From: Oscillospiraceae bacterium
Lineage (GTDB): Bacteria; Bacillota; Clostridia; Oscillospirales; Acutalibacteraceae
Length of the DNA: 32,820 bases
Reading direction: 5' to 3'
Assembly: GCA_015066635.1 (NCBI GenBank)
Contig: SVOA01000019.1
Location: forward strand, 1 to 32,820
The translations under genes and the position numbers were made by a program. Below, piece by piece: positions 22,515 to 25,705 of this stretch; position 1 is the first letter of the stretch, and each line of letters begins with the position of its first letter. The notes under the pieces are model-generated. The model did no database searches and had not been told where the DNA came from. It saw only the letters and a list, made by a program, of their open reading frames with translations.

Positions 22515-22727
22515 TCAGTCCGCGGGGTCGTATTCCATCAAATCGCCCGGCTGACAGTTGAGCGCTTCGCAAAGAGCAACGAGAGTGGAAAATCTTACGG
22601 CGCTGACGTGTCCGTTCTTAATTTTGGACAGGTTGACGTTTGCCACTCCGACCTTTTCGGAAAGCTCGTTAAGGCTCATTTTTCTGTCCGCCATAACGCG
22701 GTCAAGTCTTAAAATAATCTTTCCCAT
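22515..22727 (-). CDS. Small Cro/CI-type HTH regulator (YozG-like)
   Basis: A 70-residue protein consisting only of a helix-turn-helix domain: IILRLDRVMADRKMSLNELS, VGVANVNLSKIKNGHVSAVR and a C-terminal LVALCEALNCQPGDLMEYD, as in the compact Xre/YozG family. GAGGTG lies seven bases before the ATG, and the gene starts 11 bases after the DUF2975 stop. The DUF2975-plus-HTH pairing is common in Firmicutes. The regulator probably controls its own promoter, where TTAACG repeats are found (23475-23492). Confidence 0.9.
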   Translation of the reverse strand: MGKIILRLDRVMADRKMSLNELSEKVGVANVNLSKIKNGHVSAVRFSTLVALCEALNCQPGDLMEYDPAD

Positions 22728-22738
22728 AATAACACCTC

Positions 22739-23446
22739 TTACAAAGTTTCGTCAGATTCATGCTGAAGCTGTGCACCATACTTGAATATTGTTACAAGAA
22801 TGTATATGACCATTACCATAAATACGCTGCTGAGATTGATTGTCATATCAAAACCCGATTTGCCAATTGAAACCCATAAGCCGCCGCAAATCATATTGAG
22901 AACGATAACGGGTATAGTTGAGTTTGCAAAGTATGTCATTTTCTTGATGATTTCGTCCGAGAAAGGCGTATCGCAGTTTTTAATTGACTTCATAAGTCCT
23001 TTCAGCATATAAAGCATAACTGTTACTGCGCCGAGGAAGATAAAGCTGACTGCAAGGCAGACAATTATTCTCTTAATGCTGAAGCTGATGCTGTTGGTCT
23101 TTGCATTGAAGGATAATCCGTTTTCAAGCTTCGATACGGAAACCTCGGACAGTTCGCTGTCGTCAACCTTTACCGTGCCGCCCTCTTTTTCAATAAGGCT
23201 ACTGAGTTCTTCCATTCCGTCAAAAGAACCGAAGTGCCTGAGCTTCTCAAGGAAATTGCCCGTTGATGTTACGTCAATGTTTGTAGTAATTGCTGCATTG
23301 ATGTTTTCTCCCGATACGGCAACTGCTCCGGCAGTTCCGATAGCAACAGCTACCATTCCCGAAATTGATGCGATAATCAGTACGATAGAGATGATATAAC
23401 CTATCAGACCTGCTAAGTTAATGCTTTTGATTGTTTTGCTTTTCAT
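22739..23446 (-). CDS. DUF2975-type membrane protein
   Basis: A 235-residue membrane protein with four predicted membrane segments at about 9-31, 124-146, 172-192 and 203-224. An extracytoplasmic, mostly polar loop of about 90 residues lies between the first two (GSFDGMEELSSLIEKEGG and following). The layout and the adjoining YozG-like HTH gene identify the DUF2975 family, whose biochemical role is not known. A membrane sensor that modulates its HTH partner is an inference. The gene is first in its operon, behind a strong promoter with repeat elements, and has a GGAGGAAAA ribosome site. Confidence 0.82.
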   Translation of the reverse strand: MKSKTIKSINLAGLIGYIISIVLIIASISGMVAVAIGTAGAVAVSGENINAAITTNIDVTSTGNFLEKLRHFGSFDGMEELSSLIEKEGGTVKVDDSELSEVSVSKLENGLSFNAKTNSISFSIKRIIVCLAVSFIFLGAVTVMLYMLKGLMKSIKNCDTPFSDEIIKKMTYFANSTIPVIVLNMICGGLWVSIGKSGFDMTINLSSVFMVMVIYILVTIFKYGAQLQHESDETL

Positions 23447-23570: not shown

Positions 23571-23596
23571 CACCCCGAAGCATAGGCTTCGGGGTG
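23571..23596 (-). terminator. Terminator of the radical SAM operon
   Basis: An 11-bp stem (23571-23581 with 23586-23596), loop ATAG; the minus strand continues into TTTTT. The stem core CCCCGAAGC/GCTTCGGGG is the same as in the hairpin at 25665-25690. Confidence 0.86.
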
Positions 23597-23600
23597 GAAT

Positions 23601-25061
23601 TTATTGTTGTTTTTCGTTATGATTTTTTATAAAATCATAAACTATCCTCTTATTAACTGCAGCAACCTGACAGAAATAATCATTTACTTCAAGCATGTTT
23701 CCTGTCGGAGATTCATTTGCATTTCTTACAAGACAGGGATTACAGAATGCTGCATCTTTACAGTTTGCACATTTTTCTATATCGCCGCGTTTTAGCTTTC
23801 GCAGATATTCAAGCTCAGGCGAGGATTGCCAGATTTCAGCAAGCGACTGTTTTGTCAGGTCTCCGCAGTTATAACTCTGCCAGCCTGCACAGGGATAAAC
23901 CAAACCGTTTGATATCATACAGCATGTGCTTACACCTACACCGCAAAACGGACTTTGCGCATCAAACTGATAGTTTTCTGTCTGCTTGATAAAGTTCTTT
24001 TTTAAGACTTCATCCTGATAGCTTTTATCTCCCTCGAGTATATCTGAGATTATTTCTCCGCATTCTTCGGGAGATAGTCTGTGAGTTAAATTTGATGTGC
24101 TATGGTCATATTCTGCCATAATTGAATAATCGGTAAAAGCGCGGATTTTGTGTTCGTTAGCCCATTTCAGTACATCGCGGAAATCGTTTTTGTTTTCTTT
24201 CATGGTAGGACAGCTTATATGAACGGGAATATCGTTTTCAATTAGTTTTAAAATGCTTGCCACGGTTTTTTTGAAGGAACCGGGAATTGTTGTGATTGCA
24301 TCATGATGTTCTGCGTTCATACTATACAGGCTGACCTGAACACTGGATACTGCCTTTTCCTTTAATGCCGATAAAATCTCATCGTTTAATAAGGTTAAAT
24401 TGGTAAGTACGGCAACATAAATGTTTTTCTCTTTGGCAGCTCTTACAAAGTCTGTGAAATTCGGATGCAACATTGGTTCGCCGCCGCTTAGAGTTAATTG
24501 GAATACTCCCATATCCGCCAGTTGTTCAAGCACCTTATAGTATAATTCGGGAGTCATAATCGAGTTTTTCTCTTCATGAGGAATGTAGCAGTGAATACAT
24601 CTTTCGTTGCACTGACTTGTCAGTTCCATTTGAAAACTGATAAGCTGGGGGTTATCAAGAAAATAACTGTCAAGTGTGTTTTGAGTATCGTTGACCGTGC
24701 GTATTTTATCCGGGGTAAAATCTTTTTTTATTGTTACAGGTTCGATAGTGTTATAGGTAAAACCTATATCATTTTTGAGTATGTCATCCGCAGTTTCGCC
24801 CACAGTCAGAAAACCGTCCTCGGCGAGCATATCATAAAAGTCTTTTGCATCTGCTGTGACCTGAGCTTTATCAGCATTTACAAAAGATTTCATAATAGTA
24901 TTCGTCAATTCGTCAATAGTTTGCGGAGTATACGAAAGAGCAGACAAAAAAACCGAACCGCTTGCGTCAACAACTCGGTCATTAAACATGCCTACGGAAG
25001 TTATATAACCATACTTACCGTATTTTCTTATATAAGTATCTTTTTTTATTTTATAAAGCAT
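23601..25061 (-). CDS. Radical SAM/SPASM peptide maturase with PqqD-like N-terminus
   Basis: Predicted RiPP-modifying radical SAM enzyme of 486 residues. Seen in order: an N-terminal domain of about 95 residues resembling PqqD/RRE peptide-recognition domains (IRKYGKYGYITSVGMFNDRV onward); a radical SAM core with CxxxCxxC at Cys151, 155 and 158, GGEP at 193-196 and a late SLYSMNAEHHD; and a SPASM-type Cys-rich C-terminus (Cys373, 380, 381, 391, 399, 431, 434, 440, 443, 464) for auxiliary Fe-S clusters. The frame is open to 25235, but GAGGA before the ATG at 25061 fits better, and the extra codons would run through the hairpin and precursor gene. It follows the 41-residue Cys peptide gene, its likely substrate. 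The chemistry (thioether, C-C or other crosslink) cannot be told from sequence. Confidence 0.88.
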   Translation of the reverse strand: MLYKIKKDTYIRKYGKYGYITSVGMFNDRVVDASGSVFLSALSYTPQTIDELTNTIMKSFVNADKAQVTADAKDFYDMLAEDGFLTVGETADDILKNDIGFTYNTIEPVTIKKDFTPDKIRTVNDTQNTLDSYFLDNPQLISFQMELTSQCNERCIHCYIPHEEKNSIMTPELYYKVLEQLADMGVFQLTLSGGEPMLHPNFTDFVRAAKEKNIYVAVLTNLTLLNDEILSALKEKAVSSVQVSLYSMNAEHHDAITTIPGSFKKTVASILKLIENDIPVHISCPTMKENKNDFRDVLKWANEHKIRAFTDYSIMAEYDHSTSNLTHRLSPEECGEIISDILEGDKSYQDEVLKKNFIKQTENYQFDAQSPFCGVGVSTCCMISNGLVYPCAGWQSYNCGDLTKQSLAEIWQSSPELEYLRKLKRGDIEKCANCKDAAFCNPCLVRNANESPTGNMLEVNDYFCQVAAVNKRIVYDFIKNHNEKQQ

Positions 25062-25090
25062 AGTATATCCTCGTAATATCCTTAAAATGC

Positions 25091-25126
25091 ATAATCCGAC
25101 TGCATAACAATATACAGTCGGATTAT
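25091..25126 (-). terminator. Intercistronic stem-loop between peptide and maturase
   Basis: A perfect 12-bp inverted repeat (25091-25102 with 25115-25126) with a 12-base loop, 11 bases after the peptide gene's stop. The minus strand continues ATGCATTTTAAGG, a weak U-tract, so partial termination or 3'-end protection is likely. Such an element would keep the precursor in excess over the enzyme. Confidence 0.65.
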
Positions 25127-25137
25127 ATGTAAGTGAT

Positions 25138-25263
25138 TTACTTTGTTCTGAAACAACGGCGGCACTCGAAATCAGAGTACATACCTTTGTCAGGACAACC
25201 TGCTGCATAGCAACCGTTTGAATTGTTCTGTGCAATAACTACGGGCTTTGTGTATTCCATCAT
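25138..25263 (-). CDS. Cys-rich RiPP precursor candidate (41 aa)
   Basis: A small peptide of 41 residues with a perfect AAAGGAGG site five bases before the ATG at 25263 (a second ATG follows immediately). Residues 1-17 (MMEYTKPVVIAQNNSNG) look like a leader. The remainder holds four cysteines at 18, 23, 34 and 37 (CYAAGCPDKG, then FECRRCFRTK), that is CX4CX10CX2C. It lies directly upstream of the radical SAM/SPASM maturase on the same strand behind a strong promoter, the standard layout of a RiPP precursor and its modifying enzyme. No transporter or protease gene adjoins. It might belong to the Clostridia Cys-rich peptides of the CLI_3235/Clo7bot type, but I cannot confirm that by eye. Confidence 0.8.
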   Translation of the reverse strand: MMEYTKPVVIAQNNSNGCYAAGCPDKGMYSDFECRRCFRTK

Positions 25264-25330
25264 ACAATCCTCCTTTGACAACATGGTTTTAAACATAAGC
25301 AGGTGCAATATAACTGCCGTATGCAAGCAT

Positions 25331-25359
25331 ATTATGACATAAAATATGTAACTTGTCAA
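25331..25359 (-). promoter_or_regulatory. Promoter of the peptide/maturase operon
   Basis: On the minus strand a perfect TTGACA (25359-25354), 17 bases, CATAAT (25336-25331). The untranslated leader would be about 60 bases. Confidence 0.82.
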
Positions 25360-25371
25360 GTTATATAAATT

Positions 25372-25392
25372 ATATGCAACGTTGTCGCATAT
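25372..25392. promoter_or_regulatory. Inverted repeat in the divergent peptide/HTH region
   Basis: ATATGC, nine bases (AACGTTGTC), GCATAT: a symmetric 21-bp site 13 bases upstream of the peptide promoter -35 and just upstream of the HTH gene's likely -10 (TATACT, 25408-25413). It is a plausible operator for the divergent HTH protein. Confidence 0.5.
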
Positions 25393-25430
25393 TGCGCTTT
25401 GTTTGGTTATACTTTATATGAGGTGAGATA

Positions 25431-25658
25431 ATGCAACAGGCACAACTTGACAATTACAAAAAACTTGGGCTCAATATTGCTTATTACCGAAAATTGCACG
25501 GAATGTCACAGAATCAACTTGCTGAGAAAGTTAATATAAGCAGAACTCACATGAGCCGTATTGAAACAGCCGACTGCGCAGTGTCGCTTGATGTGGTTTT
25601 TAGTATTTGTACGGCTTTGGATGTCTCCCCGAGTAAACTATTTGACTTCAGAGAATAA
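25431..25658 (+). CDS. Xre/Cro-CI family HTH regulator
   Basis: A 75-residue single-domain regulator: LGLNIAYYRKLHGMSQNQLA, the recognition helix region NISRTHMSRIETADC, then a C-terminal VVFSICTALDVSPSKLFDF helix. GAGGTGAGA lies just before the ATG. It is divergent from the Cys-peptide/maturase operon with a symmetric site between, so it is the obvious candidate to control that operon and itself. Whether it activates or represses cannot be told; related small Xre proteins near bacteriocin loci do both. Confidence 0.9.
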   Translation: MQQAQLDNYKKLGLNIAYYRKLHGMSQNQLAEKVNISRTHMSRIETADCAVSLDVVFSICTALDVSPSKLFDFRE

Positions 25659-25664
25659 AAAATT

Positions 25665-25690
25665 AACCCCGAAGCACAGGCTTCGGGGTT
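25665..25690. terminator. Bidirectional terminator between HTH and flavodoxin-fold genes
   Basis: An 11-bp stem (25665-25675 with 25680-25690), loop ACAG, with an A-rich run before it and a T-containing run after. It serves the convergent HTH gene and the reductase ending at 25706. Its stem core is identical to that of the hairpin at 23571-23596. Confidence 0.82.
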
Positions 25691-25705
25691 ATACTATTAT
25701 ATATT

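Follow-up and report, generated by a model that had tools for sequence, protein, structure and literature searches.

What does a 41-codon, cysteine-containing peptide gene encode when it lies beside a radical S-adenosylmethionine (SAM) enzyme of the SPASM type and occurs as a single copy in its genome? The locus occupies 23571-25690 of a 32,820-nucleotide stretch from an Oscillospiraceae bacterium (contig SVOA01000019.1, assembly GCA_015066635.1), referred to here as the window. An initial annotation, made from the letters alone, described a peptide gene, a radical SAM/SPASM enzyme and a divergent helix-turn-helix (HTH) gene, an anatomy that the open reading frames (ORFs) and Pfam matches bear out. 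We propose, with a probability of about 0.66, that the locus encodes a system for a ribosomally synthesized and post-translationally modified peptide (RiPP), in which a domain resembling a RiPP precursor recognition element (RRE) binds the leader of the peptide and the enzyme crosslinks two cysteine brackets, fixing a scaffold that displays the loop between them. The elements of the locus are as follows.

25138-25263, minus strand: candidate RiPP precursor gene, 41 codons, translation MMEYTKPVVIAQNNSNGCYAAGCPDKGMYSDFECRRCFRTK, supported by the alignment of its relatives
23604-25061, minus strand: radical SAM/SPASM maturase gene, 486 aa, identified by Pfam, a 65-row alignment, an AlphaFold model and its nearest structures
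25431-25658, plus strand: divergent Xre/Cro-type HTH regulator, 75 aa, Pfam HTH_3 46.2 bits
25331-25359, minus strand: promoter-like site of the peptide gene, TTGACA-17-CATAAT, 11 of 12 consensus bases
25269-25276, minus strand: Shine-Dalgarno sequence AAAGGAGG, five bases 5' of the first ATG
25372-25392, no strand assigned: near-palindrome between the divergent genes, with 9-nt arms that are 89% complementary, a candidate operator for the HTH protein
23571-23596, minus strand: intrinsic terminator 3' of the maturase gene, a near-copy of the terminator at 25664-25691

The window precursor comprises a leader (Y4-T-K-P7-V-V-I-A11-Q-N), a first bracket (C18-Y-A-A-G-C23-P), a loop (DKGMYSDFE) and a second bracket (C34-R-R-C37-F-R-T-K). 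Translation may in fact begin at the second ATG, at 25260, which would give 40 aa, because most relatives begin M-x-Y. As for the strong promoter of the initial annotation, the site listed above is close to consensus, and across the region such sites are not enriched over shuffled sequence (7 against a shuffle mean of 8.8). An AlphaFold prediction of the lone peptide was uninformative, with a predicted local distance difference test score (pLDDT) of 57.

The pairing of precursor and maturase is real and conserved across many lineages. A first survey, in which 300 genomes of the family were searched with the window maturase, gave two full-length relatives besides the window's own, at 43% and 37% identity, both with a short peptide of similar style upstream. 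A wide scan of an 84,980-species collection with a three-enzyme alignment returned 498 pattern matches, 472 of them encoding a relative, and the best 80 of these 472, together with one viral contig, made up a set of 81 loci; maturase relatives were found in Spirochaetota, Bacillota, Bacteroidota and other phyla. Using a hidden Markov model (HMM) of the precursor, built from 44 seeds picked by motif from the maturase loci and the window, we found a precursor with the same leader upstream of the maturase in 77 of the 78 loci whose upstream sequence exceeds 300 bases, 72 by the HMM at E <= 0.1 and five by reading the motif. Neither the HMM nor the motif revealed one upstream of the maturase of L081, and the remaining three of the 81 loci begin at or near a contig end.

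Since the 44 seeds were taken by motif from the same loci and the window, the independent test is a hold-out HMM built solely from 27 spirochaete precursors. This model ranked the window peptide first among 464 window ORFs, with an E-value of 1.3e-19 against 0.042 for the next ORF. The best control values obtained were 0.033 among 2,482 ORFs far from a maturase and 0.055 among 10,819 reversed ORFs, and most precursors score far better than either. Whole-genome precursor scans, for which 44 of the 81 loci were put forward, covered 38 maturase-bearing genomes; all 40 matches were precursors upstream of a maturase, and 36 genomes had a match, with the other two carrying a second core class, described below, that falls outside the scope of that HMM. 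The initial annotation had proposed looking for homologous maturases beside similar peptides and for conservation of the peptide frame among relatives. Both were found, and it is this conserved pairing and frame that support its view of the locus as a RiPP precursor, a radical SAM/SPASM maturase and a divergent regulator.

Forty-seven precursors fitting A-x-C-P...C-x(2,3)-C were grouped as class A. Their leader reads M-x-Y-[TS]-K-P-x-[VI]-x-A-Q-N and is followed by G-S-[YF]-A-A-G-C-P, the loop and C-x-x-C, after which [ED]-R-[TA] mostly occurs. Because Y..P and A-x-C-P were the selection rule, we did not count them as evidence. Among the 47, lysine follows Y-x in 45, and A11, Q12 and N13 are kept in 46, 43 and 43, respectively; the residue four before the cysteine is tyrosine in 38 and phenylalanine in nine, and glycine directly precedes the cysteine in 46. 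The loop ranges from 5 to 23 residues, and exactly three cysteines occur in 36 of the 47. The CX4CX10CX2C layout noted earlier is right for the window copy, whose translation gives C-x4-C-x10-C-x2-C, but it is a private variant of that copy and not a family signature, because its first cysteine replaces a residue that is serine in 39 of the 47 and cysteine in the window copy alone. The F-R-T tail of the window precursor likewise occurs once in class A. Among 74 precursors overall, one has a single cysteine, 12 have two, 45 three, 11 four and five have five; the precursor alignment holds 33 rows, that of L031 being incomplete.

The second core class shares the leader and carries a near-constant core, approximately A-[EDQ]-C-R-P-N-S-K-P-S-G-R-P-C-N-P-P-x-P-x-G-R, in which the class A aromatic is replaced by methionine. 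It was found in Bacteroidota, Desulfovibrionaceae and other groups. A shortened precursor at L060:1171-1251 consists of the leader and IYAGGC, with a single cysteine, and is perhaps a degenerate or a minimal substrate.

The maturase contains the radical SAM motif C151xxxC155xxC158. It exceeds the Pfam cut-offs for the two domains that the initial annotation had named from their cysteines, with 100.6 bits against 29.5 for Radical_SAM and 38 against 21.5 for SPASM. In the 65-row maturase alignment, C151, C155 and C158 are invariant, as are C373, C391, C434, C440, C443 and C464, and C431 is present in at least 90% of rows; we take C373, C391, C431, C434, C440, C443 and C464 to be the SPASM ligands. 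The AlphaFold model of the enzyme has a pLDDT of 90 and a predicted template modelling score of 0.89. Residues 1-88 form four strands, three helices and one strand, and from this order of strands and helices we infer an RRE-like N-terminal domain of about this extent. By structure comparison, the fold of the model is nearest to peptide-modifying SPASM enzymes, with SuiB (5v1t) aligning over residues 2-465, and the best match by sequence in the PDB is SkfB (E 1.8e-15). With the anti-phage defence models of PADLOC, the maturase gave viperin-type matches and the regulator assorted HTH matches.

The leader offers a clue to how the peptide could be recognised. Lasso peptide RREs are reported to read a leader motif [Y/W]xxPx[L/V/I/F/A] (PMC13381572), and YxxP is described as essential for the LPP family too (PMC13381572, PMC12710340). 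The leader element Y-x-K-P-x-[VI] of the precursors studied here fits the lasso motif, with the difference that the RRE-like domain is here part of the radical SAM enzyme; the terms 'Radical SAM', 'SPASM' and 'PqqD' have zero occurrences in the text of PMC13381572. Given the match, the RRE-like domain would read YxKP, and by analogy we consider it quite likely that this domain binds the leader motif Y-x-K-P-x-V. If so, this family would, unexpectedly, have the YxxP recognition code of lasso systems in common with them.

While the leader stays constant, the loop does not. In the pair L012/L014, the maturases are 99.6% identical and the leaders identical, whereas the loops share 10% identity. 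At the DNA level, likeness is 0.99 over the enzyme, 0.97 over the leader, 0.91 over the 100 bases upstream and 0.82 downstream, against 0.46 over the loop, a value within chance because loop DNA of unrelated loci has a mean of 0.40 and a 95% point of 0.54. The two loci carry different taxonomic labels, Lachnospiraceae for L012 and Spirochaetaceae for L014, which may mean that one of the bins is wrong. We compared 32 close pairs with maturases at least 85% identical, drawn from 19 loci and hence not independent, and loop DNA was less alike than both non-coding flanks in 24 of them. A kept frame with a changing loop is the pattern that would be expected if the loop carries specificity. With leader and enzyme constant and the loop changing, selection on the loop can be put to a direct test. 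A diversity-generating retroelement as the source of loop variation was looked for within the stretches obtained for the loci, a weak test: none of 46 precursor genes had its 3' part repeated elsewhere in its own locus, and a simple motif search gave no reverse-transcriptase-like ORF.

These observations can be assembled into a mechanism in which the neighbouring radical enzyme very probably modifies the peptide. The N-terminal RRE-like domain of the maturase would first bind the leader at Y-x-K-P-x-V, and the radical SAM and SPASM clusters would then form at least one radical crosslink on the two brackets, that of Cys23 and that of Cys34/Cys37. Some form of radical crosslink on the brackets is probable, and thioethers from cysteine sulfur to carbon, to which we give even odds, would be the most likely type. 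The crosslink would fix the base of the hypervariable loop of 5-23 residues, the presumed carrier of product specificity. Where an amidohydrolase gene adjoins that of the maturase, as in most class A relatives, its enzyme would trim or otherwise process the product; at the window locus, a general hydrolase might take its place, or trimming might not occur. The divergent HTH protein would regulate the peptide promoter through the intervening palindrome. Judged from the variable loop alone, the product would most likely serve competition or signalling between cells. We speculate further, and tentatively, at somewhat less than even odds, that this is a mobile scaffold shared by several phyla. Its lasso-type YxxP leader would be recognised by the RRE of a fused radical SAM/SPASM enzyme, which would staple the two brackets, and the loop would be rapidly replaced while leader and maturase remain nearly identical, so that each lineage displays another loop, just as immune receptors retain a frame and vary the loop that binds. 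Should the proposed reading be true, it would describe a whole RiPP family so far unlabelled, whose maturase is named just 'radical SAM protein' on the plasmids read; it would also offer a natural system for studying site choice by radical SAM maturases, with a loop that tolerates 5-23 very different residues, and perhaps a means of displaying peptide loops.

Several points weigh against this reading. The PqqD-like domain of the initial annotation reaches 20.9 bits against a Pfam cut-off of 23.4. The weakest HMM matches, L068 (0.033) and L077 (0.064), lie in the range of the controls and depend on the visible motif or leader, and many loci stem from metagenome-assembled genomes. For eight of the 32 close pairs, the loop is at least as alike as one of the flanks. 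The loops of L013/L014 and L035/L036 have stayed alike, at 0.80 and 0.81, and in several Treponema pairs loop and non-coding flanks have diverged to a similar extent, both near chance, so that neutral drift of the loop is possible there. The window carries no amidohydrolase, nor was a match found in its genome by a search that had no positive control, and its precursor has two unusual residues, Cys18 and Phe38; the locus could therefore be a drifting copy. Finally, structures of anSME, which make formylglycine, and of ChlB score within a Z of about 1 of the best match, and the fold of the maturase therefore does not fix its reaction.

That last point bears on what the enzyme does to the peptide. 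The product could be a RiPP with no thioether at all, carrying instead an epimerisation, a carbon-carbon link at the conserved aromatic, or Cys23 converted to formylglycine as in anaerobic sulfatase maturases. We regard this as unlikely, though the most serious of the competing explanations: exactly three cysteines in 45 of the 74 precursors, and more in 16, exceed what oxidation of a single site needs, the aromatic gives way to methionine in the second core class, and the sulfatase motif, C-x-[A/P]-x-R, differs from the class A pattern. Far less probable is a role as raw material for a small redox cofactor, as PqqA is for pyrroloquinoline quinone (PQQ) or MftA for mycofactocin, with the loop discarded. 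Such a role would suit the PqqD-like and radical SAM/SPASM architecture, the presence of the PqqE and mycofactocin maturase models among the matches, albeit far below cut-off, the near-absence of ATP-binding cassette (ABC) ATPases (a match in one of 45 class A loci, within the stretches examined), and the several pairs in which non-coding DNA has diverged at least as far as the loop. Against it, the 24 of 32 close pairs with a loop less alike than both flanks suggest change beyond drift, and no dehydrogenase or cofactor family was recognised in the recurrent neighbour clusters viewed, most of which had no HMM annotation. That maturase and peptide are adjacent by chance, or that the peptide is not made, has a probability close to nil; a full-length maturase in just one of 39 genus genomes and the ease with which short cysteine-rich ORFs are over-read could be held in its favour, but the 77 of 78 loci, the 40 of 40 whole-genome matches and the hold-out E-value speak against it, as do the promoter-like site and Shine-Dalgarno sequence in place at the window.

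Crosslinking of a loop-bearing peptide by the maturase remains our preferred reading, and the system it implies was compared with those already described. SkfB and SuiB, the maturases of a sactipeptide and of streptide, have the same domain order as the window maturase, but their precursors differ from those reported here; the AlbA, SkfB and StsB models stayed far below their cut-offs for this enzyme, at 81.8 of 850, 79.1 of 300 and 74.5 of 625 bits. The SCIFF (ranthipeptide) system CteB/CteA has six cysteines in about 45 residues, whereas class A has three patterned cysteines and a variable loop. A SCIFF identity was rejected for the precursor, with four cysteines in the window precursor, three in 45 of the 74, six in none, and no NCBIfam precursor model at E <= 1. 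We also rejected a PQQ or mycofactocin maturase identity, as PqqE (89.5 of 381.35 bits) and the mycofactocin maturase (85.4 of 265 bits) both fall below cut-off. The initial annotation had raised a relation to CLI_3235/Clo7bot peptides and their CcpM maturases, a system that likewise has a clostridial cysteine-rich peptide beside a radical SAM/SPASM enzyme. This proposal was not upheld: TIGR04068 gave 34.9 bits against 500, and TIGR04065 had no match in the genome at E <= 10, in a search without a positive control, as none of 14 control genomes exceeded its cut-off.

No NCBIfam or Pfam model is matched by the precursor at E <= 1, the maturase reaches generic Pfam domains only, and among the matches listed there is no specific Pfam, NCBIfam or PADLOC model for either. 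Literature searches on the family's own motifs returned no paper, and topic searches no title naming the family, although closed papers, including the 2022 atlas of radical SAM RiPPs, could mention it. We describe it as a RiPP family for which no catalogue entry was found, and not as categorically new.

The distribution of the locus suggests movement. The island has a G+C content of 37-39%, compared with 42-50% in most windows around it, and the 29.2-29.8 kb stretch is as low. Among 39 genus genomes, a full-length maturase occurs in the source genome only, the other matches at E <= 1e-10 being distant radical SAM proteins. The left flank aligns with the sibling genome G305 up to base 23576, at the terminator, and the near-copy terminators at 23571-23596 and 25664-25691, which have one further, weaker match in the genome, flank the low-G+C island and may mark a duplication at insertion. 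Of the seven nearest clostridial relatives, four (L031, L035, L056 and L084) have integrase-like genes upstream of the precursor, confirmed by Pfam for L031 and L035. Horizontal gain of the island is likely.

The window maturase also matches seven conjugative plasmid records at 39-41% identity, five from Escherichia and one each from Salmonella and Photobacterium. In three plasmid stretches, a second-class precursor, CRPNSKPSGRPCNPPGPSGR, was found at L103:7727-8000 and at the same place in L104 and L105, between a recombinase gene and the gene named 'radical SAM protein'; it is absent from the PLSDB gene table, which is incomplete by PLSDB's own statement. A tblastn search of plasmids with the window peptide itself gave nothing at E <= 1, and none of 20,395 E. 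coli records contained DNA near-identical to the plasmid version. Phage records gave no match, and one viral contig matched.

Among neighbouring genes, the amidohydrolase is the most regular companion. Among class A loci that extend 1 kb or more downstream, 34 of 39 have it 3' of the maturase, compared with 8 of 34 others, and it usually starts right after the maturase, or one gene later in some loci; the L034 copy matches Pfam Amidohydro_2 (PF04909) with 46.4 bits against a cut-off of 26.4. In bottromycin biosynthesis, the amidohydrolase PurAH/BotAH removes the follower peptide (PMC10885120), and for this reason a processing role in typical relatives is a reasonable guess. Bottromycin clusters and these relatives are alike in being RiPP clusters with an amidohydrolase, an analogy only, as the window locus lacks one. 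Of 40 class A loci, 19 have a divergent HTH gene no more than 1 kb upstream of the precursor, against 1 of 23 other loci, as counted with an HTH model built from neighbours of the same loci.

The earlier statement that no exporter or peptidase gene is adjacent agrees with the surrounding ORFs as read, not all of which were annotated by HMM; peptidases, other transporters and immunity genes were not searched systematically. When the window's own ABC ATPase was searched against complete ORFs of at least 70 aa, two matches were obtained, one in L045, which is not class A, about 3.4 kb past the maturase start, and one in the class A locus L019, a 126-aa ORF about 7 kb away. An ABC motif test of the loci found none, a test that would also miss the window's own ABC protein.

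Further proteins recur near the maturases of individual loci. Repeat proteins with zinc-ribbon-like CxxC...SPxGKHEH units are encoded about 1.0-1.2 kb upstream of the maturase in L055 and L007, two loci of different phyla, and none of the other 81 loci searched showed the pattern. A protein of 421-439 residues with a maturase-like start occurs at L015:4615-5901, L029:4680-5999, L033:3675-4952 and L086:3154-4419, and in its L015 copy Pfam recognises a PqqD domain but nothing catalytic. Six clusters also encode, near the main maturase, a second radical SAM-like enzyme; it has 351-364 residues, and Pfam confirms Radical_SAM for the L012 and L015 copies.

L012:4582-5676, L014:2207-3301, L015:3186-4241, L033:4953-6011, L040:1675-2748, L054:1190-2284: second radical SAM-like enzyme

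In the window itself, 22515-23446 encodes a small HTH_26 regulator and a DUF2975 membrane protein. The DUF2975 protein is present in four of the 39 genus genomes, including the source; where they align, the copies of the other three are 45-59% identical to it, and in these three the HTH protein, at 88-91% identity, adjoins it.

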